Assembly: GCA_021234155.1 (NCBI GenBank)
Contig: JAJEKV010000017.1
Span: 5,561,901-5,625,900 of the forward strand
From: Isoetes taiwanensis
Lineage: Eukaryota; Streptophyta; Lycopodiopsida; Isoetales; Isoetaceae
Length of the DNA: 64,000 nucleotides
Direction of reading: 5' to 3'
Of this stretch, positions 13,808-41,830 are shown one piece after another. The notes under the pieces were generated by a model. The model was not told where the DNA came from. It was given only the letters and a program-made list of their open reading frames with translations, and did not search any database. The translations under genes and the position numbers were made by a program. Position 1 is the first letter of the stretch, and each line of letters begins with the position of its first letter.

Positions 13808-14100
13808 ACAAATGGTGCAGCTGCTCCATTTACGAAATGGCGCTGTCGCGCCATTTACCTTTAAATGGCGCAACTGCGCCATTTACCTGTAAATGGGGCA
13901 GCTGCACCATTTTCCTTTAGATGGAGCAGTTGCTCCATTTAAACTGCGCCATTTTCCTTTAAATGGAGCACCTGCGCCATCTAAAGGAAAATGGAGCAGC
14001 TGCGCCATCTAAAGGAAAATGGCGCAGCTGCCCCATTTACAGGTAAATGGCGCAGCTGCTCTATTTAAAGGAAAATGGCCCATTGACAGGTAAATGGCAT
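13808..14100. repeat. array of F-type palindromes in gene 1 intron 1
   Basis: About eight copies of a roughly 22-bp palindrome built from half-site AAATGGCGCAG and its reverse complement, for example 13863-13884 and 13919-13940. They are separated by TTACCTGT, TTTCCTTT or CTAAAGGA spacers. Several copies carry C-to-T or other changes (AAATGGTGCAG, AAATGGAGCAG). The whole array lies inside the intron between 14379 and 13702. Matching palindromes lie in both introns of F gene 2. Confidence 0.85.
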
Positions 14101-14379
14101 CTTTAATCTAAATGCTATATCTAATAACTAGAGTTATGGATTCCTATTAGTACAAGATTCAGCAAGACATCAATTGTTGAGAACTTATCTACTGAGCAAG
14201 ATAGAGAAGATCTACCCTTTAAAAACTTAATTTGTTTAGAATTATGGACAACACGCAACACACTGTAAAGAATTCTCATTAAATACACACCATCAACCCA
14301 TGCAATCTACCATCTCCAGTTCCATCCTACATTTAACATATTAAAACATTTAACATACTAGAACTGAATAGCCTCTAAC

Positions 14380-14411
14380 CTGGAGGTCATTGACGATTCC
14401 GGATCTGCCAT
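14380..14411 (-). CDS. F gene 1 exon 1 (32 nt, MADPESSMTS)
   Basis: ATG at 14411. The exon ends CCTCCAG before GTTAGAGG. Joining it to GAAAAGGCCCCTG at 13701 keeps the frame and gives SRKRPLRNLVHGDVVVARG, which aligns with E1 gene 1 (FPLYNLFVGRTIVARG). The same short-exon-1 plan is seen in E1 (22799-22818) and E2 (29449-29468). Confidence 0.7.
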
Positions 14412-15281
14412 ATCAGAGAATGCGCCTGAAGAATCTGGACAAGCGCCTGAAGAATCTAGACAAGCGCCTGAAAAATGAAGACGAGCGCCTGAAGAATGAA
14501 GCCGAGCGCCTGAAGAACGAAGCTGCGCGCCTGAAGAATGAAGACAAGGGCTAAGCAGCTGCAAAAGAAAGACAAGCGGCCAAGCTGGCGACTGCTACTA
14601 TCGTCTAAGGAACCAACGTCTAAGACGGAATAGACGTCGGAGAAGCGCCCTGCTTTGTCGACCAAGTGATCTCAGGCGCAAATACCTACGAATATTGAAA
14701 CGAGGACGAGGAGCATAAAATTGCAACCTACGGAGTCGACGATAGCGCCTTCTAATGACCATGTCTGCCTCCTGATAGTAGGCAGCGAAAGGCGCCCATT
14801 ATGAAGTGGACGGGCGGGCAAATTCAAAGTTCAAAATACGGGCGGGCAAATTCAAATTTCAAATTTGAGCGGGCGGCGTCAAATGTAAGACGGTTGGGCC
14901 GGCGGAATGACTCAAATTTTTTAAAATTTAAACGGACGGGCGGGAGAGACGGACGGGCGGGAAAATACAAATTTTTTAGAATTTGGAGAGACGGACGGGC
15001 GGGCAAATTTAAAAAATTTTGAGCGCGGACGGGCGGGTAAAATTGATTTTCTTTTCCTCCGACTTATCTTTTTCTTTTCCGTCCAATTTTCATCTCATTA
15101 CTTTTGCGCCTACTCGCCTCCCGCCTCCGCCTACCGCCTTCCGCCAGCGCCTAGCGCCTTGCACACTCTCTCTCCTATTCAAACATTTTCTCTCTCTAGC
15201 GCCCGTTGATCCGGGAGCGTTCTGAAAAAAAGTGGAGTAAGATTTATACGGTCTAGTACTTTTATACGCAGTACAAATACA
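14412..15281. promoter_or_regulatory. bidirectional promoter region between F gene 1 and gene 2
   Basis: These 870 bp separate the two divergent start codons. The part at 14810-15050 holds repeated GGGCGGGCAAATTCAAA-like blocks alternating GC-rich and AAATTT tracts. Similar blocks occur in the corresponding regions of E1 (21765-22798) and E2 (29469-30436). A pyrimidine-rich stretch at 15050-15210 precedes gene 2. The heptad-coding minisatellite at 14420-14554 also lies here. Confidence 0.55.
14420..14554 (+). repeat. 21-bp minisatellite encoding six perfect heptads (44-codon ORF)
   Basis: An ATG at 14420 opens 44 codons: Met, six units of RLKNxxx (RLKNLDK, RLKNEDE, RLKNEAE and so on), Gly, stop. 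Each unit is 21 bp, CGCCTGAAGAAT plus 9 bases. The spacing is that of a coiled coil. After the stop the same frame continues coding-like, with AAKERQAAKLATATIV and later FVDQVISGANTYEY, interrupted by further stops. That suggests a decayed coiled-coil gene fragment. It starts 9 bp from the divergent gene 1 start. Confidence 0.55.
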
Positions 15282-15321
15282 ATGGCGCAATCTTCGCTCA
15301 AAATCCAGGAGCCAGGCTCAG
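15282..15321 (+). CDS. F gene 2 exon 1 (40 nt)
   Basis: ATGGCGCAATC... ends CCAGGCTCAG before GTTAGTATC. It encodes MAQSSLKIQEPGS plus one base. Exon 2 begins after CCTTGCAG at 15831 in the matching phase. E2 has the same arrangement (30437-30503, then 31440). Confidence 0.65.
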
Positions 15322-15373
15322 GTTAGTATCTGTTGTTTCTATTCTTATCGATTTGGAGTCGCTTAGGTAACTG

Positions 15374-15770
15374 TAATGGCGCGGACGCGCCATTTCATTA
15401 GGAGAGGGTGGGCTTGTAGCCGCCCTTCCTCGTATAGTTTATGAAATGGCGCACTTGCGCCATTTCTAGAATGTCTATTGGTCTTCTTCTAGAAGGGGAC
15501 CATAGAAGAGCAAATGGCGCAGCTGCGCCATTCTCGTTGTGCTTATGTGTGTCCGGTGTTAGCGAGGTGCATGCCATTCCAAGCCATGCACCTCGGTAAC
15601 ACCAAAGACCCATAAGCACAACGATAATGGCGCAGCTGCACCATTTACTGCCATTTAGACTAAATGGCGCACCTGCGCCATTTGCTCTAAATTGCGCTGG
15701 TGGGCCATTTGCTTCTAGAAGGGGACCCATAAAAGAGCAAATGGTGCAGGTGGCGCCATTTAGAGAAAAT
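15374..15770. repeat. F-type palindromes and a large hairpin in gene 2 intron 1
   Basis: Palindromes of the AAATGGCGCAG type occur near 15374, 15450, 15511, 15626, 15661 and 15740. Between two of them, 15535-15623 forms a long imperfect hairpin with arms of about 38 bp (CGTTGTGCTTATG to CATAAGCACAACG). TTCTAGAAGGGGACC occurs on both sides, near 15488 and 15714. All lie inside the intron 15322-15830. Confidence 0.8.
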
Positions 15771-15830
15771 GCCGTTTGCTGTTTTATCTTTCTAGCACAT
15801 GTCATTTCTCTCACCATGCTTACCTTGCAG

Positions 15831-16960
15831 CGGCTAATGCGCCGAAGAAATAGAATGTGGTAACTTCGAGGAGCATAGTCCTGACTGGAAGGTCTTAGTG
15901 TATGGAGATTGTTAGAGCCATACCCTTGATTGAAGGTGTGGACCCAACCAAGGGAGACAAGAGGCGAGAACTTTGCCTCCTTGTCAAATCAGGTACATGT
16001 GAAGAAGGAGTTTCAGCCGTGGCCCAGATGGGAATCATTGTTAACATGAGGGAAGTCAAGAAACAAGGAAGACTTGACTTTCTTGGTTGCACAGTGGAAG
16101 ATCCGGTCACTGGCAGCGTTGATCTCTACTGCATGGATTGGCAGTGCTACGAGCCTGCAATGATGGAGTCCAGCATAAAGGACCAAGCACTGTCGGCCAA
16201 AAAAAAGAGGTTGGCTGCTGCCATCTTATGAGTCCAGAGAGCAAGCAGATATCAAAGGCACGATAGAGATCCTCAGAGGATTCGGTATTCTGCGAGCGGC
16301 AATGGACATGTCCAAAAACTCTGTGTGCTACATTGTAAGAGCGAAGCTCTCAGGCAACATGCCAGCAGTAATGGATAGCAGATGGCTGCTGGGAGAGATG
16401 CAGAGAAAAGGTGTAAAAAGTAAACCAGCCACTAAAGTTGGCAAAGGAGCAAAGACAGGTGGAGGTGATGAAGTACAAAGGGAGACAGAACAAGAGGGAG
16501 GACGAGACGGTGAGAAAGGGGACGAGCATCAGGATGAGAAGAGGGATGAGCCTGATGCTCACCAACATGAATCTCCCGTGAAGTCCACTGGGAAGCCTGC
16601 TGATAGTGATCGCACGATTAGTGACAATAAGGAGGCTACAAAACACATAAAAGTGGTAGCATCCACAGCAGATAGCACACCAGCAAAGAGAAAGAAAGAA
16701 ACCAAAAGGGAGACAAGGGCCAGGAAATTGCAAAAGATTGCAGATCTTGAAGTGCCCGAGGAACTAAAGATGAGAAGAAATGGCAGAGGAAACATTAAAG
16801 AAAATACAAAAGCACGGCCACATGTTCCCCCTTAGAGTCACATACACCAGAAGAATATCTATCTGGGATCTAGAAGAGGCACCACCTAATATGACCGCCA
16901 GGGTTATTAACCCCGAGCATATTAGGAGGCTCTGCAAATCTTTCGCTGAGGATCCACATC
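15831..16960 (+). pseudogene. F gene 2 exon 2, 5' part, cut off by E1
   Basis: Frame-matched from exon 1, the exon meets two in-frame TAG stops, the second where E2 has TGG. It then runs through CMEIVRAIPLIEGVD and RRELCLLVKSG. A frameshift near 16220 follows, then LPSYES and ADIKGTIEILRGFGILR, a long Lys/Glu-rich region, and NPEHIRRLCKSFAEDPH. At that point E1 interrupts it, in the first part of the ParB-like block. The gene resumes at 40400. Homologous to gene 2 of E1 and E2. Confidence 0.75.
16957..16960. repeat. 4-bp target duplication CATC, left of E1
   Basis: CATC precedes the left TIR and CATC (40400-40403) follows the right TIR. Removing E1 and one copy gives CCACATCCAGTATTC, colinear with CCACATCCAGTGTTC in the E1 copy of the same gene. 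Confidence 0.9.
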
Positions 16961-16986
16961 AAGCACAATTTCATTAAAATGAGAAA
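16961..16986 (+). repeat. E1 left terminal inverted repeat
   Basis: AAGCACAATTTCATTA followed by AAATGAGAAA. It matches the complement of 40374-40399 except at two positions. The longer subterminal sequence (to about 17010, GTGATTCCAATTAGG) is repeated at the matching end of E2 (to 35298). Confidence 0.9.
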
Positions 16987-17283
16987 TTTCGTGATTCCAA
17001 TTAGGAACGAAAATCCTTTTCAGTCCATTTTATGCCAATTTTTTGAGCAATTATGGCGCCATTTAGAAAAAATATGCCTCTAAAACGTCATTTATTGGCG
17101 CCATTAAAAATACTAACAGTGCATATAAAGAAGCTAAAGAAACACAACTTCTCAAAATTAGTTAAAAATTCCAAATTCATAGATTTGCATATCAAAAAAT
17201 TTGCCACAACAGGCAAGGACTCGAAAGAGAGAGTCTGTTTACAAAAGGATTATTGTACAATTTAAATTACAATCACACAAAAT
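16987..17283. other. E1 subterminal region next to gene 2 end
   Basis: About 300 bp between the TIR and the end of gene 2. It carries TTATGGCGCCATTTAG (17051) and TTATTGGCGCCATT (17091), half copies of the E palindrome. The same pair is present in E2 at 35150-35210. No gene seen. Confidence 0.6.
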
Positions 17284-18447
17284 TCAGGGTTCCGCATCAG
17301 GATCAGGTTCCGCATCAGGAGCAGGTTCCGTATTGCCAGGGTGGCTAGAAGAAGCAACCATAGGATCTCCCTGAAAGCTCTCGAACGCTGTGGCAGTGAA
17401 ATTGGGATCACTAAGAAAGTCCAGATCGAATTGTGTGTTCTTGATCACATCATAGTCCACATCGGGTGGAGCTTCGGGCATCTCTAGATTAGGTGGATCT
17501 ACAGCTTCTTCAACAACAACACCTTTTGTCTCTGTAGGAACTGCTGCGATGATAGGATTCAGTAGGCGGTCAAGCCTATCAAGAATCCCCCTTAGGCAAT
17601 CCTGCTTAACCGGGTCACTTTCGAACACAATGCAAAATCTCTTATTCATCAATGAAGCCCGGCCAAAAGAACCACAGGAGAAGTAATCAAACACCCCAGT
17701 TCCTGGCGGTACCATTTTCTGCACGAGGTAGGAACATGTGGCAGGCCCCAGCTGGTTTCTCATGATTATGTCCCCTGGCAAGCCTTGCCAGCTGTACCTG
17801 AATCTGCTGTTGCAGAGCTTTCCTGCCATAGCCTCGCTCTCCACCTCTTCGTCTTCTTCGTTAGGCACAGGAACTGGTGGCAGTTCTTGAGGATGATCGT
17901 TGAAGGGGAATTTGAGGTCAATTTCATCGACAGGATGACCTGCAGTGGCCTGAATTTTTGTGGCGTACACCAGTGCATGGACCTCCTGAACTCCTGGGGC
18001 AGGCGGATTTTTGTATTCGTCCTCATACGTGCCAATAAAAACTCTGGATCTGGAATCCAGATCATCCAACACAGATGAAATCAAAAAGTTATGCTCTGGC
18101 CTTGCAAAGACCACTATCCAGAAAGAATCAGCTGTGGTGTTCTTCACAGCTGTATTAAAGAAATTAGATAGTGTGGTTTTGTCCCACATTGGAAATATGC
18201 CTCTAGTGTCTAGGGCAATCAAGGATGCTGGCACAGGAGTGCAAACAACTTGCCCCCTACTGTCTGTTAGTTCAACTTCGCAACGGAAGTCTTCAGTATC
18301 CTCTCTCTGCAAGACAGCATTGCATATGAATCTTGCCAAGGCTGGTGGCACGTTACCGAAAACGCCTTCCTCCAGTTTCAACCCACTTACTATGCAAGGT
18401 GGCCATGGAAATGAGGTCGGTATCCTCGAAGCCCGGCACGGCAGCAC
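17284..18447 (-). CDS. E1 gene 2 C-terminal part with DNA-methyltransferase-like motif I
   Basis: An open frame of 387 codons ending at 17284. Near 17615-17705 it reads GVFDYFSCGSFGRASLMNKR, then FCIVFESDPVK and ILDRL. This aligns with motif I and the following strand of beta-class N4/N6 methyltransferases (DxFxGSGT, GRxxxGxExD, RL), with YLVQKMVPPG in the usual upstream position. The expected catalytic (D/N/S)PP(Y/F/W) site should lie upstream near SLIALDTRGIFPMW, before WIVVFARPEHNFL. Here it reads DTRG, so catalysis is doubtful. It ends with an acidic proline-rich tail (DAEPDPDAEP). Confidence 0.6.
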   Translation of the reverse strand: MLPCRASRIPTSFPWPPCIVSGLKLEEGVFGNVPPALARFICNAVLQREDTEDFRCEVELTDSRGQVVCTPVPASLIALDTRGIFPMWDKTTLSNFFNTAVKNTTADSFWIVVFARPEHNFLISSVLDDLDSRSRVFIGTYEDEYKNPPAPGVQEVHALVYATKIQATAGHPVDEIDLKFPFNDHPQELPPVPVPNEEDEEVESEAMAGKLCNSRFRYSWQGLPGDIIMRNQLGPATCSYLVQKMVPPGTGVFDYFSCGSFGRASLMNKRFCIVFESDPVKQDCLRGILDRLDRLLNPIIAAVPTETKGVVVEEAVDPPNLEMPEAPPDVDYDVIKNTQFDLDFLSDPNFTATAFESFQGDPMVASSSHPGNTEPAPDAEPDPDAEP

Positions 18448-18868
18448 TGAGATCAGTGAAGGATTTGAACTTCCTCGGAAAGTTATCCTTCACGTATTTA
18501 AAAATCTCCTTCTTCAAGAAAGATATGGATCTTAGTGTCTTTGCCCTTGCCTTGAAGAATTGCTTACCTGTATAATCACTGGTGACCTTGACGAAGGTCT
18601 TCCCATCCAGCACTTCCTGGAACAAAATCCGACAGTCTTCGTAGTCGAGACCCCTCATGCACCTCAGGTAGGTCTGACTGAAGTAGTCATGATCTTTTGC
18701 CCAGTTACAAGTAATAGTTTGTCCCTTGTTATCTTGCAGCTTGCAAGATTTCCACAAGTTCCATAGGGACATGAATAACTGAAAAATATCCTCTGGCATG
18801 AAGACCCACTGGTTGAAATCTTTTGGATGCTTACCACGCATGGTAACTTCAGCCAAAGCCAGATAACG
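18360..18868 (-). CDS. E1 gene 2 exon 3, 5' part (conserved helical region)
   Basis: Starts after TTTCCAG with RYLALAEVTMRGKHPKDFNQ. The charged, helix-rich segment includes WNLWKSCKLQDNKGQTI, DYFSQTYLRCMRGLDYEDC, VKVTSDYTGKQFFKARA and FLKKEIFKYVKDNFPRK. The equivalent in F (40916-41653) is 40-50% similar by eye. It sits between the ParB-like block and the methyltransferase-like part, and could be a DNA-recognition domain; that is inference. The frame shifts near 18385. Confidence 0.6.
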
Positions 18869-18910
18869 CTGGAAACAAGAAGAAGTTAGTCTTGAATGAC
18901 ATTTAATGAG

Positions 18911-18962
18911 CAAATGGCGCCGCGGCGCCATTTAGTGAGGAAATGGCGCCCCGGCGCCATTT
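18911..18962. repeat. two E-type palindromes in gene 2 intron 2
   Basis: AAATGGCGCC-x2-GGCGCCATTT at 18911-18932 (centre GC) and 18941-18962 (centre CC), spaced 30 bp apart. Both lie within the 124-bp intron 18869-18992. E2 has four related copies in the matching intron (33248-33360), and F has two F-type copies at 40831-40878. Confidence 0.85.
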
Positions 18963-18992
18963 GCTAATCTTGCCAACAATTACAATATGTAC

Positions 18993-20321
18993 CTTGTATG
19001 GTTCTGAGCGTGACTGCCCGCGTCCCGATGGATCAGGCTTCCCGCATAAAGCATATTGCTGCCGCATGTGGGTTATGTTATCAATGAAGGACTCTTTGAA
19101 AATAGTCTTCGCAGTGATATCATTGACTTCACAACTGAGCTGCAGGCATTCCTGTTCGTTGACTGTGCCAGATAACACTCGGCAATTCCGTTGAAGATAA
19201 ATCTTTGACATTTGCTCTTGGGACTTTGCTGTGCCGAGTCTTCTACATACAAGCTGAGCAGCCATAACTGAATGATTGTCATTCACTATATAATAGTGCA
19301 TCCCCATGAGGTCATCCTCGATTTTCCAAGCGACCAGTTTGTTTGTGAGGGGATTGAATGGAATCACATCAGCTGGAGTGAACACTGGATGTGGGTCTCT
19401 CTGAAAGGACTCCACTAACGTTTTGACGTGCTCCATATTCCTTGGTCTAGATGTCAAATTTGCTGGCCCTTGATATAATTTGAACACGTCTATTTTTTTT
19501 GTAAATGTGACACCCAGAGGAAACAGATGCCAGTGATCGTAAATTTTATTCAGTGTATTCTCTGCCGTCTTTTCCTCTTCTGACCTTTCCACCTTAAGAT
19601 TTGCAGGCACCTCTAGCAAGTGCTGAGCTATTCTTAATGTGAGCTTCTTTGGCTCTGGATTCTTAATAGGGACCCTTTTGGCCGGTGTGTCCGCAGGATC
19701 CTGGCTATACCTTGGGCTCGGAGGTTCACCACCACTTCTAGGACTTCCAGCAGGACTAGGTGTCCGAGTCGCTCTCCTTTGTTTTTTAGGTGTCCTCTCC
19801 TTCTCAGAGGTCTCCAGCCGGTGCTTCTTCTTCTTTTTCCCATCAATTTCCTCTGTCTCCACTTCCTGTCCCTCCTTTTCCTGTCTCGCCTTTCCTTCCT
19901 TCTGCCCCTTGCCTTCCCTATCCTTTTGTTTCCTTTCCCTTTTCTTTTCCTTCTTTTCTTTCTCTTCTTTCTCTTCCTTCTCTTCCTCTTCCTTCTCTTC
20001 CTTCTCTTCCTTTTCCTTCGCTTGCTTCTTTTCCTTCTTTTCCTTCACTGGATCTTTGTGATCCTTTCTCTTAACTTTCCTCTTGCCCGCCGCCTTTCCT
20101 TCCTCAGTTTCCTGGCCGACATCCTCAGTAGAAGATGAGGAGTCTTTGTCGGCTACAGGTGTCTCCTTAGTAGTTTGTCTTGTCTTCTTCTTGCTAACAG
20201 TTTTTAGCCAGGCCGTGTCCACAATGGCGGGTAGTTTCTGCTGGGCTAATGCCTTGACAACGAATGAAGGCGAGTTTTTCGACTCGTTCATCCGATTGCG
20301 AAGAATCATAAAGCCCCTCAA
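18993..20321 (-). CDS. E1 gene 2 exon 2, main part: Lys/Glu-rich linker and ParB/Srx-like block
   Basis: Open from GFMILRNRMNESKNS to the splice donor at 18993. Residues about 50-190 are a KE-rich, probably disordered linker. The block at about 19255-19440 reads RNMEHVKTLVESFQRDPHPV, FTPADVIPFNP and MHYYIVNDNHSVMAAQL. The order (helix plus Ser-Phe, a 'pi-V-P' strand, then a GNH(R/S)xxAA-type box) resembles the ParB/sulfiredoxin fold, with NDNHSVMAAQ in the place of GxHRxxA. A conserved cysteine-bearing region follows (RNCRVLSG, LSCEVNDITAKTIFKE). Fold assignment is by motif only. Confidence 0.6.
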
Positions 20322-20821
20322 GATTTCTTGTGGGCCTTTGATGTCAGCTTCTTCAAAATTTGTTGTTGACGGCGGCGTAACCTTGCTTCTTCGCCGAACC
20401 AGCTACATTTGCAATGATAGCAGACATTACTGTGGGATCATAAAACTTCCAGTCCACATAGTAGACAATTATTCTCTGCTGCAAAGTATCCTCACAGACC
20501 ACCCGGATCCAGTCGTCGCGACCGCTCTTGACAACCATCTTCATGTGGACCAGGATACCTGGCTGGTAAATTCTGGCTGTTTCTGGGTCTGTCTCCCTTA
20601 TGAGGAGGCAGAGCTCTCTTCTGCAGTCTCCTTTCGAGCCTGTAGCAGTAGAGGGGCTCACCCGCATTACTTCCATGCACCAGTACCTGTCTATCAGCAT
20701 GATAGTCTGGTCGGATTGAAATTGTGTTTCCGCACGTAAGATAGCTGCAACAAAGGGGCATCAGTAACAAAGAGGCACCAGTAAATGGTTTTAACAAGCA
20801 GGCAGACAATCAGTTGTGGCA

Positions 20822-21660
20822 GGCAAATGGCGCCATTTGCATTTGAGTCCAGTGCATAATCACATGAAAGCAGTTCGTATGCATATCCATGCGTTTGGTC
20901 GCAGAGGCCTCCACCCAGTCCGAGCCCCTCCCCTTCGCAATATTCGAAGAAGATGGTTCGAAGGAGAGTGGCTCTGACTGGGTGGAGGCACCTGCGACTC
21001 GTAGGAGAGAGCACTACAGAATGCAACACAATAAAAAGCAAGCTACCTCGGAACTGAACTCGGATGCAAATGGCGCCATGGCGCCATTTGCTTAGTCGTC
21101 TGGTTTTAACAAGCAGGCAGACCAGACGACCAGGCAAATGGCGCGGCGCCATTTGCATCCGAGTTCAGTGCATAAGCAAATGGAAGCAATTCGAATGCAT
21201 TTCCCTGCGTTTGGTCGCAGAGGCCTCCACCCAGTCCGAGCCCCTCCCCTTCCAAATATTCGCGGAAGATGGTTGGAAGGAGAGGGGCTCTGACTGGGTC
21301 GAGGCACCTGCGATTTGTAGGAGAATACATATGCGAATGACTAATGGACTGGACGCAGATAAAAATGGCGCCATGGCGCCATTTGCCAACAACAAGTCCC
21401 AAATGCATGCTAATAGACATCAAATGGCGCCATGGCGCCATTTGCCAACAACAAGGCCCTATGGTAAGCTAATAGACATCAAATGGCGCCATGGCGCCAT
21501 TTGCCAACAACAAGGCCCTGTGGTAAGCAACCAGGCATCCTAAAGTAAGTCGACTCCTAAAAAGTGCACTTCAGGCATCAAATGGGCCATGGCGCCATTT
21601 GTCAACTATAAGACCCTAAACCGGTTACCGGGCATCTAAATGGCGCTGTGGCGCCATTTA
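20822..21660. repeat. E-type palindrome cluster and two large hairpins in gene 2 intron 1
   Basis: Perfect 22-bp palindromes (half-site AAATGGCGCCA) at 21068-21089, 21363-21384, 21422-21443 and 21481-21502. Variants lie at 20825, 21136-21154, 21580-21600 and 21638-21659. Imperfect hairpins with arms of about 38 bp sit at 20900-20996 and 21219-21315 (CCTCCACCCAGTCCGAGCCC against GACTGGGTGGAGG). Spacers repeat CAACAACAAGGCCC. Everything lies within intron 1 of gene 2 (20745-21693). Peptides such as MAPWRHL translated from it are artefacts. Confidence 0.9.
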
Positions 21661-21764
21661 GCCCAAACAAAACAATGCAAGTAGATGACATACTGCCCCC
21701 TAGAGGTGCGCTTAGCCGGGCTGTCTCCACACATTCGAGGAGCTCCGTAATTGTCGATTTCCAT

Positions 21765-22798
21765 TTCGAGCTTTGAATTTGGTCCGAAAAACTGGTGTAT
21801 AGCTTGATGTGTTGAGGTATTTGAACGTGTGGGGAAATGGGCCGTAAAACACGGGAAAAAAGGGACGGAAAAGGGGTTGCTTTTAGGGCGCCTGGCGCTT
21901 AGGCGCCGGGCGTATTTAGGCGCCGGGCGCCGGGCTTTTAGCGCCGGGCGCCGGGCGCTTAAGGTCGAGGCGCTTAGGAGCCGGAATCAAAAACTAAAAA
22001 CCGAATGAGAAGCTTTAAAAACAATTAGGCATAAGAAACTTTGGGCGCTGCCTCGCCTTACGTATCACACAGCGCCAACTACGCCCCGTATCGGGCCAGC
22101 GCCCATGCCCGGCCCCGCCCATGCCCGCCTGTAAGGTCCAGCGCTTATGCCCGCCAAGCCGCCCATGCCCGCCCATGCCCGTGGCGGTCCAGGCGCCCAT
22201 GCCAGCCCGTGCACGTGGCGGTCCAGGCGCCCATGCCCGCCACAATTTGAAATTTGAAATTCGAATATTTCCCGCTTCTAACGCCTCGCCCTAAATTTGA
22301 ACATAAAATTCAAAATTCCCCCACCAAAATTAACATAAAGTCAAAATTCCACCAGAATTGAAATTTGACTGCCACCTGTCCAAATTTGAATCGTCCGCTT
22401 TTAAAATTGTACTTTGCATTTAAAGCTCCCTCTTTGTCGCCCTGCTCACACTTAATGCGACCATGCCACGACGCAGACGCGTTGCGGATTGCCGGTTCGG
22501 TAGCTTTCGAATACCTGATTTCGTCTCGTTTTTGCTTCGCCGCATAAAGGCGCTTCTTTTCTTAGGCGATAGGCGAAACTTTGCAAAGGCGCATCGCGTC
22601 TTTGTCGGCGCTTTTTCTTGGTGCTCCTGAAATCCTGGGTGATTCTTGGCTTTCTTCTTGGCGAATTCTTCTTGGCTTTCTTCTTGGCGAATCCTTCTTT
22701 GCGCTTTCTTGGCGAATCCTTGGCGCTTTCTTCTTGGCGCTTTCTGCTGGGATCAGCTTGATTTTCCTGTTCCATCTACTGCTCCAGGACATACCACT
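21765..22798. promoter_or_regulatory. bidirectional promoter region of E1 between genes 2 and 1
   Basis: A GC-rich run of GGCGCCGGGCGC-like repeats (21885-21980), then CCGCCCATGCCC repeats (22090-22250), then AAATTTGAAATT and CAAAATTC tracts (22240-22330). TTCTTGGCGAATCC-type repeats follow, leading into gene 1 (22640-22750). E2 has the mirror image at 29469-30436. The plan is the same as in F at 14412-15281. Confidence 0.55.
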
Positions 22799-22818
22799 AT
22801 GGATCTATCTAATATCAA
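22799..22818 (+). CDS. E1 gene 1 exon 1 (20 nt, MDLSNI)
   Basis: ATGGATCTATCTAATATCAA is followed by GTAAGT. Joined to GTTCAATTTT at 23487 and, past E2, to CCCCTGTACAACC at 35303, the frame reads MDLSNIKFNFPLYNLF and continues into VGRTIVARG. The identical exon is present in E2 at 29449-29468. Confidence 0.75.
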
Positions 22819-22942
22819 GTAAGTCCATTTTTTCTGGTATGAATTCTGTTCTATTGCTGCCATGTGTATAGCGTGTTCAAATCTTTGATATGAATCTTTG
22901 CTAGGAAACTAAGAACCTTGGTTTCAATTGCAAAGTTGGCAT

Positions 22943-23410
22943 GGGGTGCCCATGTTATGCATGCCTGCTCTTATTGACACATATACAGCAATGGGAGCAA
23001 GAATGCATAACATAGGCACCTCGTGTAGATTTTGTGATGGAGCTAAGCCAAATCGCCCCATGTGACCTTGGATCAAATGGCGCCAGGGCGCCATTCTATT
23101 CCAAATACACCCTTATGGTGTGTTGGTCTTAATGGCTCCATAGCGCCATACCGTTGAACATGGTGCACGGCTGAAATGTAAATTTGGAGCCAAATGGAGC
23201 CATGGCGCCATTTGGTCGAAATGGTGCACTTGGATCAAATGGCGCCATGGCGCCATTTGTTCCAAATTCACACCTATGAATGTGCCATAGGTGTGAATTT
23301 GGATCAAATGGCGCCATGGCGCCATTTGATCCAAGTGCACTGTTTCGACCAATGGCGCCATTTGGCTCCAAATTTAGACCAAAATTTATTCTTTTGTACT
23401 AAATGGCGCC
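22943..23410. repeat. hairpin and E-type palindrome cluster in gene 1 intron 1
   Basis: A hairpin at 22943-23023 (GGGTGCCCATGTTATGCATG against GAATGCATAACATAGGCACC) is followed by palindromes at 23075-23095 (variant), 23192-23213 (variant), 23237-23258 and 23306-23327 (both perfect), and by half-type copies near 23351 and 23400. The two perfect copies flank a short stem-loop CCAAATTCACACCTATG...CATAGGTGTGAATTTGG. All are inside the intron 22819-23486. Confidence 0.9.
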
Positions 23411-23486
23411 ATTTTCGCTTATTTATTGCTTATTTTTCGTCTATTTCATATGTTCTAAAAAGTGTCGACTTGCTTGATTGAAACAG

Positions 23487-23496: not shown

Positions 23497-23554
23497 AAGC
23501 ACAATTTCATTATAATGGGAAAATTTTTAGTAAACTGGAATTTTTTTATTATGG

Positions 23555-24361: not shown

Positions 24362-24369
24362 TTAAAAAA

Positions 24370-25045: not shown

Positions 25046-25064
25046 CCAATAATTCTATAACGAC

Positions 25065-33244: not shown

Positions 33245-33365
33245 TATGAAATGGCGCGCGGGCGCCATTTGTTCACTAAACGGGCGCCACGGCGCCATTT
33301 CTCACCAAATGGCGCCACGGCGCCATTTTTTCACTAAAATAAGCCACGGGCGCCATTTGCTCATT
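33245..33365. repeat. E-type palindromes in E2 gene 2 intron 2
   Basis: Four close copies (GAAATGGCGCGCGGGCGCCATTT, GGGCGCCACGGCGCCATTT, AAATGGCGCCACGGCGCCAT, GCCACGGGCGCCATTTG) between exon 2 and the TTTCCAG acceptor at about 33400. E1 has two in the same place. Confidence 0.75.
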
Positions 33366-35272
33366 AAATGTTCAAGTCTAACTTCTTGTTGTTTCCAGTT
33401 ATATCCGGCTCGGGCTGAAGTTACCATGCGTGGTAAGCATCCTAAAGATTTCAACCGGTGGGTCTTCATGCCGAGGATATTTTTCGCTTATTCGCGGTCC
33501 CTATGGAACTTGTGGAAATCTTGCAAGCTAAAAGACAACAAGGGACAAACTATTACCCGTAACTGGGCAAAAGAATCTGACTACTTCAGTCAGACCTACC
33601 TGAGGTGCATGAGGGGTATGGACTACTTAAGACCTGCCGGGTTACGTTCCTGTGAAGTGTCGGATGGGAAGACCTTCGTCAAGGTCACTAGTGATTATAC
33701 AGGTAAGCAATTCTTCAAGGCAAGGGCAAAGACACTAAGATCCATATCTTTCTTGAAGAAGGAGATTTTTGCATACGTGAAGGATAATTTTCCGAGGAAG
33801 TTCAAGTCCTTCACTGATCTCAGTACTGCAGTGCCGGGCTTCGAGGATACCGACCTGATTTCCATGGCCACCTTGCATAGTAAGTGGGTTGAAACCGGAG
33901 TGGGCAAGGAAGGCATTTTCGTAACGCCACCGCCTTTGGCAAGATTCATACGCAATGCCGCCTTGAAGAGAGAGGATATCAAGACTTCCGCTAGGCGGTT
34001 GAACTAATGACGCAAGGGACAAGTTGTTTGCACTCGCATCAAGATCCTTGATTGCCCCGACACTAGAGGCATATTTCCAATGTGGGACAAAACCACACTA
34101 ACAAATTTCTTTAATATACCGTAAAGAACACCACGGTGATTCTTTTTGATAGTAGTCTTTGCAAGGCCGAGCACAACTTTTTGATTTCATCTCAGATTGG
34201 ATGATCCGGATTCCAGATCCGAGTTTATATTGGCATGTATGAGGACTAATACAAGAATCCGCCCCCCGGGGAGTTCGGGAGGCCCATTCACTAGTGTATG
34301 CCACAAAGATTCAAAGCCATCAAGGTCCTCCCCCGTCGGGTTATTGACCTCAAGTTCCCTTCAACGATCATCCTCAAGAACCGCCACCGCCTCGTGCCTA
34401 ACGAAGAAGACTAAGACGGGAGACCGAGGCTATGGTCGGGAAGCTCGCAACGCCAGATTCAGTACATACCGGGCAAGGCTTGCCGGGGGACATAATTATG
34501 AGAAACCAACCGGGTCCTCGCTACATGCTCGCACTGCAAGCGTAAAATGGTACCGCCAGAACGTGGGTGTTTGATTACTTCTCCTGTGGTTCTTTTGGCA
34601 GAGCTTCATTGCTGAATAAGAGATTTTGCATTGTATTAGAAATTGACCCGCTTAAGCATGAGTGCCTAAAGGGGATTCTAGATAGGATTGACAGCCTACT
34701 GATTCCTACCATCGCAGCTGTTCCTGTAGAGACCACCTGCTGTAGTTGAAGAAGCTGTAGATCCACCAAATCCAGAGATGCCCGAAGCTCCACCCGATGT
34801 GGACTATGATGTGATCAAGAATACACAATTCAATATGGACATTCTTGATGATCCCAATTTCACTGCCACAGCGCTCGAGAGCTCGGGAGATCCTATGGTT
34901 GCTTCTTCTAGCCATGGCCCTGGCCATACGGAACCTGATCCTATTGTGGAGCCTGTTCCTGATGAGGAACCCTGAATTTTGTATGAAAATAATGTAAATT
35001 GTACACTAATACTCTTGTATACAGGCTGCCTCTTCCGAGTCCTTGCCTGTTTTGGCAAATTTTTTAATATGCAAATCTATGAATTCGGAATTTTTTACTA
35101 TTTTTGTGATGTTATGTTTCTCCAGCTTCATTTTATGCAATGCTGGAATTTTTAATGGCGCCAATAAATGGCACTTTAGATGCATATTTTTTTTAAATGG
35201 CGCCATAATTGCTCAAAAAATTGGCATAAATTTGACTAAAAAGGATTTTCGTTCCTAATTGGAATCACGAAA

Positions 35273-35298
35273 TTTCTCATTTTAATGAAATTGTGCTT
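35273..35298 (-). repeat. E2 right terminal inverted repeat
   Basis: Complement of AAGCACAATTTCATTAAAAT, matching the left end of E1 (16961). With 23497-23522 it forms the TIR pair of E2. Confidence 0.9.
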
Positions 35299-38200
35299 TT
35301 TTCCCCTGTACAACCTATTCGTCGGAAGGACAATTGTTGCCCGGGGACATATTTTGAATAGAACCACTCTTCATGGGAAGGAAATAGATCCTTCAAATGT
35401 CGCTATTGAGGTCACGGAGTCCGTGATCCCATCGACCGAGCTTCCAGTCCCCTGCGGAGGGGCAGATAACATTGGTGAAGCAGTAGGCACATTCATTCAG
35501 TGGCCTAAGAGGGATGTAAAACAAAATGAGTTCCCCTCAAGTGAAGATACGTCTTCGAGATCCCTCAATTTGCCCTCTTCAGAAGAGGATTCATCTAGTA
35601 GTCCACCATCTGTCAGTAGCCCGCCGGACATCAGTTTCACTGCTCACTGTGGTGAACCAAGCAACACAGCAACAAATGAAGAAGACGAGATAGTAGAGGA
35701 GATTGGAGGTCATGAGAATCTAGCTGCCCGTCTTGGTCTCAGGTTGTTTAAGCCTGAAGATGAGACAGTCTACTACTCCAGAACAGATCTACTAGGTTTG
35801 CCATGCTACATTCTTCATTCCTGCATTGGATCTAAATATTCGGAGGCGAATATAGTCTTTAGTGATCCCCAGGATGCTATAGACGATGAGTTCTTGGGTG
35901 TATCAAAGGTCGGGCTTTCAGTGGGTAACATAATAGATCCAACGGGAAACCAAAATATCAGGTCATGTAATGCTTGTGCTAAGAGGCCTATAGCTAACAG
36001 TCTAGTAACCTGGGAGACCCATGATGTTTTGCTTCATGATGGTAGGACAGTTTCACAACATTTACAAGCTCGAGCTGCTCTCGAACATGATGACTTAGAA
36101 GTTGAGTGCTTGGAAGCTGATGTTGAGAAGCAATTCAAGAGGAAAAGGAAATATACATATGTGAAGAGGGTCAGGAGGGAACCAAAGGGGGATAGGAAGG
36201 AGGAGAGGATGTGCGCTTCCAAGTCAATCAATAGTGCTCTAAAATCAACATGCTGCAAGGACGAATATGTCAAAAACCGAGAGAGAGCAAGTATGTGCCT
36301 TAAGAAAAGAATTTTATTCTCAATCAAGCAGTGCCAGGATTACGCTTGTTTTTGATGTGTTGAGTGTAACTTATACAGGGCAGTCGGAGGCGAAAGTAGT
36401 GGTCTCTGGAGTGGAGTGCTGTCAATTCGCATGGCGCGTGGCTTTAGGAGTTGCTCTCGGCCCACGCTTTATAGTTGGAGGAAGAGGTTCGAGTTAGGTG
36501 GAAAACGGGCAGAGCATGGTAATACAGGCTCTAAGAAGCCTAGATCTGTGACACTAGCTACAGAAAGTGTGCTTGATACCTTCATTAGTGAGAATGCGGA
36601 GAGCATTCCACATAGAAGCAAAAAAGGGAAGGATGATATAAGGGAGAATGTTCGCAAACTTCCTTCCATTCTTAATAAGAAGAGCATACATAAGGAAGTG
36701 GGTGCCGTGGTGGAAGAATTGACAGGAAAGAGTGTAACCTTGCCCTCTTTTTACAATATTTGGAAGAAGGAGTTTTCAGACGTCAGCATAACAAAAAATA
36801 CAGCATTCTCCAAGTGTAACATATGTGTAGTCATCAAGCAGAAATTGGAAAGAACAAAAGATACAAGGGAGAGGCGTAACCTTTCAATTCAACGGCGGGC
36901 ACATATGTTGGAACAACGTTCCTGTAGGAGTCAATATTGGCATTGGCGTGCATTATCACATCGTTCGCCAGAAAGTCACCTTTGCATAATACATGATAAG
37001 ATGGATCAGGTCAAAACATTCACACCAAGAAGTCACCATCTCGCAAAGTCTGTTTGGAGAGCAGATCGCTTGAAGAGCAGCTTGACAGGAGCATTGACAC
37101 ATGGTCATGGTGGACGGGCTTATGGCCATTTCTCTCTTGATCTTTGGAAGGATGACTCAAACTTTCATGTTGGATCACTTTCTAGGATCCTACACTATCT
37201 TGAGTTGCCGGAAGAAGACAAGTGTGGTGATCCAGGTGGAAGCGTAACTACGATTGCAAATTGATGCAAGCCCTAAAAGATACTCGACCACTTCAGCATA
37301 AGCTAGCGCAGACACAAGAGAAGATGCCTTCATCTTCTAGTGCCAACTTAGAAGGCTTCAATCCTCTTCCTCAAAATCTCTACTTACAGTTGGATAATGC
37401 ATCGGGTCAAAATAAAAATAGATATGTGTTCTCCTACCTCTCTTATTTGACATGGCTTAAGGTATTCGATGAGATTCAGGTTGGCTTCATGATGGTTGGG
37501 CATACTCATGACGATATTGATGCATTGTTCGGGAACTTTTCGACGTTAATGAGTTCATCGGATGCTCTAACTTTGCCCCGAAGTTGTTTTACTTGTTTAG
37601 CAAGTGCAATGCAAAGTCTCCCCTGTTCCATATTTTGTGGATGAAGTTCCAGATTGAAAGGCTTTGTCAAGGGATATATCCCCGATAAAGGCCAACGCCT
37701 AACAGCCATACCGACCCATTGCTATTCGATTTAAAATGGATGGAAATGGCCCATTATGCAATATAAGATGCGCCAACCCATAAAGAGTGGATTCTAGAAA
37801 AGGAATAAGAATGTGGAAGGAGGATGAAAATGGTGAGCCAACGTTACCAACGGGGGTGCCTAAAAATATCCCTCCAAGGAAGACATTGAAAGATCTCCCC
37901 GGCCCGCGCAAAGATCGCAAGTACATAGCATTATGGAATTCCTACGCAAAAATCAAGAAGATAGTGTGTTTGCACGACAAGACAAAAGCAACTATGGATT
38001 ACTGGAACGAGATTCTTGTGTGTTTGGAAGATGTATCTCCAGGACGACCTCAAAATGATAACTTTTGGTTGCGTACAAGGCAAGAACCTCTACAAGCTGC
38101 ATTTACTCCAAAGGTCGATGAAGCCGCTGTGCTTGTAAGACCTTTGCCTACGTATTGTGGGCTAGCAGATGGGCGTCCAGTGTTGCCTATGGATGAGTTC

Positions 38201-38514
38201 GATCCTCATGCACATGTTACGAAAGGTATGTTTGTTTTAGTCCGACCTGGAGATGGTTGGGCTTTACAGAAGAAGATGCCATCCTAGATCCAGAGTCTAC
38301 CAATTATGGTCACATTTATGTATCATGGTGGATGCCTGTTGGTCGTGACTATACAGGTTGCTTAACTAAACGTTGGCGACCCAATCCATCAGATCCATCA
38401 AGGTATGAGAAGTTAGATGCCATACATTATGCATGGGATGCAAATGGCAAAAGACCGAAGACTGTTCAGATTCCAAAATACATTGTTGACATGGGGGGAC
38501 ATAGCATTAGCTAA
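35299..38514 (+). pseudogene. E1 gene 1 exon 2 continued: DUF7869-type transposase, frameshifted
   Basis: Resumes with TTTTCCCCTGTACAACC. One DUF8039-like domain (VGRTIVARGHILNR, VTESVIPSTELPVP, GTFIQWPKR) precedes a Ser-rich linker. Then come the CNAC and TCCKD Cys motifs, a frameshift near 36290, an HTH-like region, the catalytic part with HDKMDQ (36992-37009), QLDNASGQNKN (about 37388) and GHTHDDIDALF (about 37498), another shift near 37600, and the C-terminal segments (37787-38514, GMFVLVRPGD, IYVSWWMPVG). All three acidic motifs are intact, so the decay is mostly indels. Confidence 0.75.
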
Positions 38515-38758
38515 AAGCTCTCAATCTCAGTCATGTTCTCGATAATCATGTATGTAATTTCTTTTGCTATAATACTTAAGCATTTTGGACAATTAATACG
38601 TTGTCGATACATCAATTAGCTTCCATTATGCTTATACTAACATTACATCTTTTATAATAGGTGTTTAATACACATCATTACATCTGATGCACACATTATT
38701 GATGGCATACATATAATTTAGATGCACATATTATTGATGGCATTATAGAGTCGATGAT

Positions 38759-38998
38759 TCACTCATCATCAATCCCTGCTATTGTGATCGCATTTAGCTT
38801 GTAGGCATGGCGCTCAGGAACCCAAAGAAGATGGATCACAACACGAGTAAGGCCGGGGCACTCACACTCACGACCTTCTGCTTTGGATTGTAAGTAAGGA
38901 TCCAGCTTAACACCTTTATGTATGCAGCGATTAATATCATTGTAGCTCATGGAGCAAAGAATGGTCTCAAACTGATCTTCATAAATATTATAAGCCAT
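38759..38998 (-). CDS. E1 gene 3 (79-aa small protein)
   Basis: ATG at 38998, 30 bp after a conserved TATAAAAG leader (39029-39036 on this strand). It carries MAYNIYEDQFETILCSMSYND, then GVKLDPYLQSKA, CPGLTRVVIHLLWVPE and a terminal DDE. Intact. It is convergent with gene 1 (ending about 38514) and divergent from gene 4. Homologues are at 6039 and 6535 in F and a remnant at 25106 in E2. No known domain recognised. Conservation between two element families indicates a selected function in the transposon. Confidence 0.7.
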   Translation of the reverse strand: MAYNIYEDQFETILCSMSYNDINRCIHKGVKLDPYLQSKAEGRECECPGLTRVVIHLLWVPERHAYKLNAITIAGIDDE

Positions 38999-39028
38999 GG
39001 GAGATGAATGACTTACCGAATGGAGCTG

Positions 39029-39036
39029 CTTTTATA
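39029..39036 (-). promoter_or_regulatory. TATA box of E1 gene 3
   Basis: Minus strand TATAAAAGCAGCTCCATTCGG, identical in its core to the promoters at 5996, 6492 and 25065. Confidence 0.7.
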
Positions 39037-39049
39037 GTCGTTGTAGAAT

Positions 39050-39475
39050 TATTGGTATAATACTTCAGCATTATTGGTATTATACGTGAGCATTATTGGT
39101 ATTATACGTCAGCATTATTGGTATTATACTTCAACATTATTGGTATTATACTTCAACATTATTGGATTCGTAGCTATAAATTCTTTTACCTTGTTTTCAC
39201 TTCTCACTTTTCACCTTGCTACTTGATCTTGATCCTTGCTTCTTGCTCCTTCATCTTCCTTGTTCCTTGATCTTCTTGCTACTTGATCTTCCTTGTTCCT
39301 TGATCTTCTTGCTACTTGATCTTCCTTGTTCATTGCATCTTGCTACTTGATCTTGATCCTTGTTCCTTGCTACTTCATTCCCGTGCTCCTTGCTACTTGA
39401 TCTTCTTGCTTGCTCTTGAACTTGCTACTTGCTCTGCTCCGTGTTCCTTGCTCCATCGGTGATCCTTGCTTGCTT
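39050..39475. repeat. short tandem repeats between E1 genes 3 and 4
   Basis: About five units of ATTATTGGTATTATACTTCA-type 21-22-bp repeat (39050-39165). A pyrimidine-rich CTTGCTACTTGATCTTCC array follows (39210-39470). Complement of 24370-25045. Confidence 0.75.
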
Positions 39476-39481
39476 TTGCAA

Positions 39482-40078
39482 ATGATTGGACCCAATCCTC
39501 CCTGGGCTACTCCAGAAGGCCTGCAAGCATGCCCCAGACATTCTGTACGGCCTGGAATGGATGAGCTATGGGACCATTTCTTGGAGTGGAGGTTGCGCCA
39601 CAGTCCCACCAAGGAGCTTACAATGGAGTTGATCAACTTCATTCTGGAGCGATTTGATTGTGGTCATGAGCCACTGATGGAAATTAATCCATCTGAATGT
39701 TATAGGAGACTTGCAATGAGGGGACTTCTTGAATCCCCTCCTTATCTGGACGAGATGCTACAGCAATTGAGGCCTCTTCTTCGTGCTGGATATTTAGCAC
39801 ACTCTCTGGATGCATACATATCAGAGTTCATTCATGAAATTAACCGGGGACAGATGTATGGCCTTATTAGGGTGTACTACAACGAGTACAACGGTTTTGT
39901 GGAGTTGGGTCCGCTCTTCTTCCGTGAGTATCATCCTGTGGAATTACTTTTTCTAATGACTAGGTACCCCATATGGTGGGAAGAATCAGGCTGGGAGGAG
40001 CGTGAGCTCTTGACTCCTAACCCAGATGCGTGGGTTAGACCTCGCAGGCCAAGGGAAAGGGGAAGGGGAAGGGGTTAG
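39482..40078 (+). CDS. E1 gene 4 (198-aa protein with Arg/Gly-rich tail)
   Basis: I chose the ATG at 39482 (MIGPNPPW) because the E2 remnant conserves from there; the open frame extends upstream into the repeat array. It has helical segments WDHFLEWRL and TKELTMELINFILE, CYRRLAMRGLLE, a FIHEINRGQMYGLIRVYY block, ELGPLFFREY and YPIWWEESGWEERE, then a basic tail RPRRPRERGRGRG that could bind nucleic acid. Not recognised as any known family. It is the outermost gene, about 320 bp from the TIR. No F copy found. Confidence 0.65.
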   Translation: MIGPNPPWATPEGLQACPRHSVRPGMDELWDHFLEWRLRHSPTKELTMELINFILERFDCGHEPLMEINPSECYRRLAMRGLLESPPYLDEMLQQLRPLLRAGYLAHSLDAYISEFIHEINRGQMYGLIRVYYNEYNGFVELGPLFFREYHPVELLFLMTRYPIWWEESGWEERELLTPNPDAWVRPRRPRERGRGRG

Positions 40079-40194
40079 GAACCTGGGGGGAAGGTTACTA
40101 GGGACATACATAGTTCGTACTTCGGTCTCTATTGTGTTTGGAAGTTGGTATATGATACCGTGTTATTATGTTCTCTAAATATTCATGTATGTAT

Positions 40195-40345
40195 GATAAA
40201 CGAGTACTGCACGTGTATACAACCCCTGCATAAGGTCTATGATACAGGGTACTGTATACGTGTATACAACCCCTGCATAAGGTCTATGATACAGGGTACT
40301 GTACACGTGTATACAACCCCTGCATAAGGTCTATACAACCCCCAT
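40195..40345. repeat. E1 right subterminal repeats (three units)
   Basis: ACACGTGTATACAACCCCTG followed by CATAAGGTCTATGATACAGG occurs about three times, with ACGTGTATAC and GTATACGTG palindromic words. The matching end of E2 has two units (23555-23665). Confidence 0.7.
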
Positions 40346-40373
40346 AATAAAAAAATTCCAGTTTACTAAAAAT

Positions 40374-40399
40374 TTTCCCATTATAATGAAATTGTGCTT
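40374..40399 (-). repeat. E1 right terminal inverted repeat
   Basis: Complement of AAGCACAATTTCATTATAAT, followed by the CATC duplication at 40400-40403. Confidence 0.9.
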
Positions 40400-41830
40400 C
40401 ATCCAGTATTCACTCTAGCAGATGTGGTGCCCTTTGATCCGGCTACAAAGGAGTTGCTGACCTGGTCACAAGAATCTGATCTGGCAGGGAAACGATTTTA
40501 TATTATCAATGGTAATCATTCGGTCTCTGCTGCTCAGCTTGTGTGCAGTAAGTTGGGGACAGAAGACGCTAGAGTTGAGCTCAGGAAGATCTATAGCTAC
40601 AGAATATGCAGAGTTCTTTCTGGAGACATCAGTGGCCTGGACCTTCTTAGCTCAGTGTCGATGTCAATGATATAGTAGCCAAGACTGTCTTCAAGGAACC
40701 ATATGTGGATCAGATCCACCATCTGCGTAAGCAGTATTAGGAGTGTGGAAGACCAGCTCCTGCTGGTAAAGGACAGTCAAGAAGTGACGAGTACAAGGTA
40801 TGTTTACGTCTGTGATGCCAAACATTTATCGAAATAGTGCAGCTGCGCCATTTGATGTAAATAGCGCAGCTGCGCCATTTGAGTTGAAATTCTAACATCG
40901 CCAGTTCTCTTGCAGCACTACCTAGAAATGGCAGACAAGATTCTGAGGGGCAAACACACGAAGAATGTCAATCGGTTTGTCTTCATGCCAGATGATGTCT
41001 ATGCACTCTTTCGCCAGATGTGGAACAAATGGAGGAAGGGAGAACTAAAGGACAATAGGGGTCAAGCTATAGTAATCAATTTTGCGAAAGACAAAGATTA
41101 CTTCAGTGACAACGACCTTAGATGCATGAGGGGCTTGGACTATGATGATTGTCGAAAGGTCCTCGAAGAAGCATTAAGCGGGGATATATACGTCAAAGTC
41201 ACCTCAGATTACGAAGGCGAGAATTTCTTCAAGACGAGGGCGCAGAACTTAAGAATACTTGCTTACATGAAGAAGGAGATACTGCACTTCATTGCAGATC
41301 AAATTGGCATTAAGTACAAGAAATTCGAGGACCTAAGGAAGGCCACCGACCATTTTTCAGATAATGCACTTCTGGCTTGGGGAGTATGCCACCATAAGTG
41401 GGTGTCGGAAGAAATACTCAAAGAGGGAGTTCATGGTAACATGCCATTCTCCTTGGCCAGATCCATTCGAAAAATCCTTCAGCCCGAAACAGAAAAGAAC
41501 TTGCCAAGATATTTTGTGGAACATGTCACTGCTGGGGGGATTCCGCAAGAAAATGCAGTTCTACCTGCCAGCATGATATGTTTAGATGCAAAGCAGCTTA
41601 CTCCAGTTTGGAATAGTGAGACTGTAACCGCGTTCTTCGATAGCGACAGATGACAGATGTAGAGACATACTGGATTCTATGTTTCGTCAGGCCGGAGCAT
41701 AACTTTCTATTTGCCAGTGCGCTTGAAAGACTGGAATCCAGGTCAAGAGTATTTATAGGAATCTATGAAGAGGAGCTGGTACAGATGGTTCAGGAATCAA
41801 AGAGCCATGCGAAGCTTGGTATAATCCGAA
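40400..41830 (+). pseudogene. F gene 2, 3' part after E1: ParB-like block and conserved helical exon
   Basis: Resumes HPVFTLADVVPFDPATKELL, then FYIINGNHSVSAAQLV (box at about 40508) and ICRVLSGD. A frameshift near 40640 and a TAG follow before SDEYK and the donor GTATGT at about 40800. Exon 3 starts at 40916 after TTGCAG with HYLEMADKILRGKHTKN and is open to 41653 (LRCMRGLDYDDCRK, VKVTSDYEGENFF, then MICLDAKQLTPVW). After another shift WILCFVRPEHNFL and SRSRVFIGIYEEE appear. Homology ends near 41815, before methyltransferase motif I. Confidence 0.75.
40831..40880. repeat. two F-type palindromes in F gene 2 intron 2
   Basis: AAATAGTGCAGCTGCGCCA and AAATAGCGCAGCTGCGCCA types at about 40831 and 40858, each ending CATTTGA. 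They lie in the short intron 40800-40915, the same position as the E-type pair at 18911-18962 in E1, but with the AGCT core. Confidence 0.8.

Follow-up and report, generated by a model that had tools for sequence, protein, structure and literature searches.

Lineage-specific palindrome arrays in Sola-1-like two-gene transposons of Isoetes taiwanensis as candidate targets of an element-encoded protein

Three nested DNA transposon copies, all of the same kind, lie in a 64,000-nucleotide stretch of the Isoetes taiwanensis genome (assembly GCA_021234155.1, contig JAJEKV010000017.1, positions 5,561,901 to 5,625,900), referred to here as the window, and the non-coding parts of these copies carry arrays of a short palindrome. 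Self-alignment of the window separates an inner E element, an outer E element and a more diverged third copy, F, each with two divergent genes: gene 1, the transposase, and gene 2. The inner E (23497..35298, + strand, 11.8 kb; gene 1 on the - strand, gene 2 on the + strand) is delimited by self-alignment and its junctions, is flanked by the target site duplication (TSD) TTTT, and was inserted within the outer copy, adjoining the start of outer gene 1 exon 2. The outer E (16961..40399, interrupted by the inner copy), delimited in the same way, has the TSD CATC at 16957-16960 and 40400-40403 and is itself the large insertion in F, positioned in exon 2 of F gene 2. F spans approximately 6900..42170 on the + strand, as judged from self-alignment and open reading frames (ORFs); two insertions split it, a LINE-like (long interspersed nuclear element-like) one within gene 1 and the outer E. 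The terminal inverted repeat (TIR) AAGCACAATTTCATTA is common to both E copies. The gene 2 proteins of E and F are 45% identical over 194 aligned exon 3 residues; other pairs reach ~50%, and the E/F families overall range over ~45-51%.

TIRs and 4-bp TSDs (CATC and TTTT in the window, TTTT at the derivative L033 described below) mark these as cut-and-paste elements. Sola transposons have TSDs of this length. The elements are probably Sola-1-like two-gene DNA transposons, an assignment in which gene 1 is recognized by the Pfam domain DUF7869.

The palindrome, M1, consists of two constant 9-bp half-sites placed head to head with 4 bp between them. The half-site, AAATGGCGC, has 67 exact matches in the window when both strands are counted, against a mean of 0.50 and a maximum of 3 in 100 shuffles, which bears out the observation of an earlier, sequence-only reading of this DNA that palindromes recur in it. 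With up to one mismatch there are 108 half-sites in the window, seven of them outside 6900-42170. Across the genome, exact dyads number 2385 with a 4-bp spacer, 55 with a 3-bp spacer and 78 with a 5-bp spacer; the exact 22-mer of E is matched 957 times, and the reversed controls give 0 throughout. In a sample of 29 E/F-type copies (26 family representatives chosen from two lists of 150 scored matches each, and the three window copies), 280 dyads stand head to head across 4 bp, scored at up to two mismatches per arm and up to three for both arms together. At one mismatch or fewer per arm, other spacers are rare except for an overlapping 14-bp form, AAATGGCGCCATTT, itself rarer than the dyad and found 13 times in total, in families E, T, U and V.

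Families differ in what lies between and around the half-sites. The spacer is most often CATG in E (36/62) and U (37/54) and AGCT in F (35/64), while K is mixed. Adjacent dyads are mostly 4-7 bp apart, a distance that varies by family, with 23 bp also found in E. The sequence-only reading had given each family its own half-site and core and asked whether the core co-varies with gene 2. The half-site proves to be identical in E and F, only the 4-bp spacer differs, and strict co-evolution of half-site and gene 2 is not seen inside E/F. Because the difference lies in the spacer and the half-site is constant, the step from E to F involves no change of recognition sequence and speaks for co-evolution only weakly; it is lineages outside the window that speak for it strongly. 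In the introns of two U-family copies (L021, L023), a variant half-site, AAATGGAGC, is spread through one array, often as a single arm.

Most M1 sites fall in three introns, which are predictions from donor and acceptor sites compared among 12 E-type sequences. Consensus splice sites are compatible with all three, and the boundaries and CTAAC box of gene 2 intron 2 are found again across families. In the inner E these predicted introns are gene 1 intron 1 (28846..29448, - strand, GTAAGT...AG, sites at 28919-29189), gene 2 intron 1 (30504..31439, + strand, array at 30537-31359) and gene 2 intron 2 (33220..33398, + strand, array at 33249-33358, CTAAC before the 3' splice site). The corresponding arrays of the outer E lie at 23075..23414, at 20822..21660, where a 59-bp unit makes up part of the array, and at 18911..18962, and those of F at 13808..14100 (AGCT spacer), 15374..15770 and 40831..40880. 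The claim that E and F use the same three introns stands in that each predicted intron holds an array; for F gene 1 intron 1 it is only probable, as F gene 1 exon 1 is not located.

Half-sites with at most one mismatch number 2, 14 and 6 in the three introns of the inner E (3.4, 14.9 and 33.9 per kb), 13, 15 and 4 in those of the outer E (21.6, 15.8 and 40.0 per kb) and 19, 14 and 3 in those of F. In the inner E, gene 2 exon 2 and the stretch from exon 3 to the 3' region have none (0 per kb); elsewhere there is one on the 5.4-kb gene 1 side (0.2 per kb), two in the middle, where first exons and promoter take up 1.06 kb (1.9 per kb), and three in the last 200 bp (15.2 per kb). The arrays are not confined to introns, as had been supposed: one inner-copy half-site lies in the 5' untranslated region or promoter of gene 2 (30358-30368), subterminal half-sites stand ~90-140 bp from the TIR end (17054..17106 in the outer E, 35153-35205 in the inner), and L033 holds two arrays. 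Dyads are present in 29/29 E/F-type copies, some of which have only one or two; a dyad lies within 300 bp before exon 3 in 26/29, and the zones taken to be exons 2 and 3 are dyad-free in 28/29, with E6 as the exception (three dyads). The notion that the palindromes served as insertion targets of the nested copies was dropped, because the outer E landed within exon 2 of F gene 2 and the inner E next to exon 2 of gene 1, neither in palindromes.

Arrays of this form could be neutral tandem repeats, amplified within introns and read by nothing. Tandem duplication is indicated by unit periods of ~27-29 and 59 bp, and copy number differs between copies, down to the one or two dyads just mentioned. 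However, the half-site and its 4-bp spacing are preserved although the spacer and the surroundings diverge, and the same zones are occupied in families whose proteins are only ~45-51% identical, which leaves neutral amplification a very improbable account.

The sequence-only reading had also offered RNA or DNA hairpins that control the element's own expression; as RNA hairpins in introns, they would govern splicing or expression. Each dyad is foldable as a 9-bp stem with a 4-nucleotide loop, the three main zones of autonomous copies are predicted introns, and changes in both arms of the 280 dyads slightly exceed independence at two positions (6 versus 3.5 at position 5, 19 versus 12.6 at position 7), an excess that tandem copying also explains. 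Among the 200 dyads assigned to gene 2 introns by position, however, 158 changes affect a single arm and 20 affect both, and changes that G.U pairing would tolerate number 44 on the sense strand versus 56 on the antisense strand, so that there is no sense-strand wobble excess. Spacers are frequently palindromic (137/280), which a loop does not need. Pairing is mostly lost and spacing is kept, a combination that fits two protein half-sites on DNA.

Further evidence comes from element derivatives that appear to lack genes. The 18 E-type clusters checked, formed by the listed places of the exact E 22-mer, the first in contig order, all lie within or beside element DNA, 13 as judged by sequence and five by a gene 2 match within ~5 kb. 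Nine of the 13 include internal element sequence, and four (L028, L033, L036, L038) match element ends only. L033 is a complete element of 3,042 bp with both TIRs, TTTT on each side and 31 half-sites in two arrays, in which no coding match was found. L028, L036 and L038, each with one end within the stretch, hold 9, 27 and 12 half-sites, respectively. A single 28-amino-acid match in L038 (1.6e-6) to the start of a gene 1 ORF was not counted as a gene; that ORF reads through terminal transposon DNA. Because these derivatives apparently offer no gene for splicing or regulation to act on, their arrays either act in cis on element DNA or do nothing. That the arms mutate singly and that a gene-less derivative keeps its arrays argues against a splicing or hairpin function; together with the strand symmetry, these points reduce the RNA-hairpin reading to a very low probability, and it was rejected.

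Other lineages of the same transposase carry other palindromes. A genome-wide first look gave 9,907 DUF7869 candidates, of which 150 matches were scored and 22 loci sampled: six with long open frames and 16 spread over the list, the stretch examined for these 16 running from 2900 to 1500 bp before the DUF7869 domain. One palindrome class is found alone in 17/22 loci, with at most two stray near-matches of another class in any. The classes are M2 (AAGTGTATTCCGGAATACACTT, five loci), M3 (CGGTATAAATTTATACCG, nine loci, of which L040 has a variant and few sites) and M5 (GTCTATGCGCGCATAGAC, three loci), all unrelated in sequence to each other and to M1. Genome counts are 1810 for M2, 587 for M3 (as the 20-mer ACGGTATAAATTTATACCGT) and 213 for M5, with 0 for the reversed controls. 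One further locus, L054, is mixed, with eight M1 and six M3 near-matches; its M1 sites are ascribed to F on account of an F match ~1 kb away. The clusters lie ~1.7-2.7 kb ahead of the DUF7869 domain; L041, L043 and L044 have them again 3.6-4.5 kb ahead of it. These positions are comparable to those in E. In L043 a cluster follows directly after the exon for the ParB-like part of gene 2.

The class of palindrome follows the transposase tree. With 22 domains and the three window rows under six labels, the tree has 8 changes, against a minimum of 5 and a shuffled mean of 14.6, and a value as low is reached in 0/200 shuffles, a test inflated by near-copies within a class; the independent class changes are three. 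When the four rows without an array and the mixed row are dropped, the remaining 20 array-bearing rows, with four labels, show three changes, the minimum. Between lineages the whole motif is replaced, and its place and dyad form are conserved. These results also bear on host transcription factors, such as a YY1-like zinc finger, as readers of the sites. The extended YY1 motif, AAnATGGCGnC, resembles the E/F half-site, this half-site does not vary among diverged gene 2 proteins, and sites occur on both flanks of the divergent promoter. A host factor is nevertheless improbable, given that in three further lineages of this transposase the comparable places are taken by unrelated palindromes and that dyad spacing is strict.

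Gene 1 occupies 25634..28845 on the - strand in the inner E from exon 2 onward, where ORFs alone set the 3' limit, and 35299-38287 on the + strand in the outer E (Pfam DUF7869, 1e-28); its helix-turn-helix matches are weak and fall under the cut-offs. Gene 2, divergent from the transposase, appears to encode a ParB-like and DNA N6/N4 methyltransferase-like protein. It was seen, in pieces, in L040, L041, L043 and L044, with the N-terminal part also in L042, and the ParB-like part of the first four is homologous to the E/F counterpart, placed in the outer E at 18993..19580 on the - strand (profile match, E 3.4e-6, probability 88%). In L044 (M2), gene 2 contains the motif FSGSGTT and matches Pfam N6_N4_Mtase at 7.4e-17, and the solved chains nearest to this methyltransferase are MboIIA, RsrI and CcrM. 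The motif ADIPYG occurs in gene 2 of L043 (M2) and of L040 and L041 (M3). Gene 2 of the M2/M3 lineages appears to keep catalytic motifs, motif I and motif IV being read in separate genes.

In E/F elements the methyltransferase-like part is degenerate. The C-terminal part of gene 2 (17545..18402, - strand, in the outer E) matches the motif I region at E 2.3e-4 and a probability of 44%, and motif I itself resembles FSGGAF or FSCGSF in E, F and K, in contrast to FxGxG. The DPPY motif IV was not seen in the E/F/K gene 2 ORFs read, and the profile match of the motif IV region is not significant (0.81). The E/F protein appears to lack the intact motifs expected of an active DNA N6/N4 methyltransferase. 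Profile searches against PDB returned nothing for piece A4, a sigma factor and others at 0.15 or worse for A2, and RsrI methylase at 0.23 for A1. Weak hits that gene 2 pieces gave to unrelated Pfam, NCBIfam and PHROG families were put down to chance. No transposase of Mutator-like elements (MULEs) and no VANC-type DUF1985 or DUF287 was found, gene 1 being DUF7869 and the scanned gene 2 pieces having no such Pfam match.

We read the arrays as cis targets of a DNA-binding protein encoded by the element, most likely by gene 2, that would act in the manner of the VANC proteins of Arabidopsis; we give this reading a rough probability of 0.6. Recognition by some element-encoded protein, the kind of factor the sequence-only reading had suggested, is very probable and is supported indirectly, by four classes that map on transposase lineages, by their comparable positions and by their retention in a gene-less derivative. 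A dimeric protein made by the element would read the two half-sites at their fixed spacing, and several dyads per array would raise affinity and keep the action to kin. Once bound, the protein may alter the element's chromatin or its base modification such that silencing is lifted or expression is set, and through the subterminal half-sites it may influence transposition too. Between lineages, site and reader would change jointly, as in the VANC/VANDAL pairs. The effect may be anti-silencing, self-marking or autoregulation.

The arrays could instead be bound by the gene 1 transposase or its helix-turn-helix part for transposition or dose sensing, a use like that of TNPA sites in CACTA elements. 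Motif class follows the gene 1 tree, subterminal half-sites lie ~90-140 bp in on the gene 2 side, gene-less L033 has kept its arrays, and the helix-turn-helix matches, weak as they are, fall in gene 1. Most sites, however, lie well inside the 11.8-kb element, kilobases away from either end, and the gene 1-side 5.1-5.4 kb, terminus included, hold only one or two half-sites. Gene 2 is the probable reader and gene 1 an unlikely one.

Several observations weigh against gene 2 as a VANC-like reader. The two genes are not separable in the sample, so gene 1, with its weak helix-turn-helix matches, could be the reader. Gene 2 was seen in only 4/22 non-E/F loci, and partly in a fifth, L042; none was seen in the M5 lineage. 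Four of the 22 loci (L045, L046, L060, L066) have no array in the stretch examined. The ParB-family matches of gene 2 are weak, the best at 0.0021 and 0.013, under the cut-offs, and AlphaFold models of the ParB-like and methyltransferase-like parts, built from the window rows alone, are poor (mean predicted local distance difference test scores of 37.9 and 42.0). Finally, the E/F half-site stays constant across gene 2 proteins only ~45-51% identical, so no co-change is visible inside the E/F lineage.

A precedent for such self-recognition is found in the VANDAL elements of Arabidopsis, which belong to the MULEs. VANC21 binds arrays of YAGTATTAY in the introns and other non-coding parts of VANDAL21 (PMC5735166), VANC6 targets differ in motif, and methylation is lost through the action of VANC (PMC5735166; PMC10398659). 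The claim that no transposon with such a feature had been described is thus wrong in kind, since family-specific VANDAL arrays bound by VANC were already on record (PMC5735166). The Isoetes elements likewise have family-specific arrays in non-coding sequence, and these change from one related element to another, as the short-motif tandem arrays of related VANDAL elements do. The VANDAL reader, as described there, is an element gene other than the transposase, a role for which gene 2 is the candidate here. The systems differ in that VANC21 motifs are 9 bp long and share one orientation, whereas the Isoetes sites are inverted dyads of 18-22 bp; VANDAL elements also belong to another superfamily, with a DUF1985/DUF287 accessory protein in place of a ParB/methyltransferase-like one. 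Anti-silencing has been demonstrated for VANC, whereas the Isoetes elements are known from their sequence alone.

The gene pair has a precedent as well. In the brown alga Ectocarpus, Sola1-1_Ec32 carries a gene with ParB-like and N4/N6 methyltransferase parts on the strand opposite the transposase, and the authors propose that its product binds and modifies the transposon itself (PMC12477816). The same divergent arrangement is seen in E/F and in L040, L041, L043 and L044, a likeness in which the proteins are compared by description only. Differences are the candidate target sites found here, none being named for Sola1-1_Ec32 in the available excerpts, the vascular plant host and the degenerate methyltransferase in E/F. 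Fungal DNA transposons that encode TET/JBP dioxygenases, read as a possible answer to silencing (PMC12730594), likewise combine a DNA transposon with a DNA-modification enzyme; the enzyme and the superfamilies are different, and site arrays are not mentioned in the text available. The element proteins TnpA of Spm/En and MURA of MuDR have been linked to demethylation of element DNA (PMC10398659), in superfamilies different from that of the Isoetes elements. Among the matches listed in a search of open-licence literature, no description of target arrays for ParB-methyltransferase transposon genes was found, nor was a paper naming DUF7869 in that literature. Both the gene pair and the notion that it targets its own element are already known; what the arrays add is candidate targets.

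These arrays make the idea of self-binding testable, since thousands of sites fall into four unrelated spellings, every one of which goes, in the sample, with a single transposase lineage. They also suggest that VANC-like pairs, with a private site and a private reader, have evolved in elements of a lycophyte that are not MULEs. If these are co-evolved pairs of protein and site, they constitute a natural series for studying change in DNA recognition. A more speculative possibility, which we regard as doubtful, is that each lineage has a private self-recognition code, in which the gene 2 protein binds its own arrays and methylates them, to N6-methyladenine or N4-methylcytosine; code and reader would have been replaced at least three times, and the E/F writer, having lost its catalytic motifs, would now be a reader only. 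Such self-marking, if it occurs, would distinguish an element from the host's DNA and from competing transposons.

Several minor features accompany these elements. DUF7869 is very abundant in the genome, as the first-look candidates indicate, and 14 control genomes gave no match to it. A further palindrome, in the context TCTCTGTATAAATTTATACAGTCT, occurs once per locus, nearer gene 1 than the array (L050 1231, L052 1201, L054 646), with variants at L056 1201 and L070 1226. On the gene 1 side of the E elements there is a tandem-repeat region (24368-25050 and 39045-39475) that contains no exact half-sites. In F, part of gene 1 is apparently tandem-duplicated next to a palindrome array (13125-13269 and 13461-13623), and the LINE-like insertion in this gene comprises reverse transcriptase ORFs at 8394-11510 and a 301-bp direct repeat (10633-10933 and 11210-11507, 97%).

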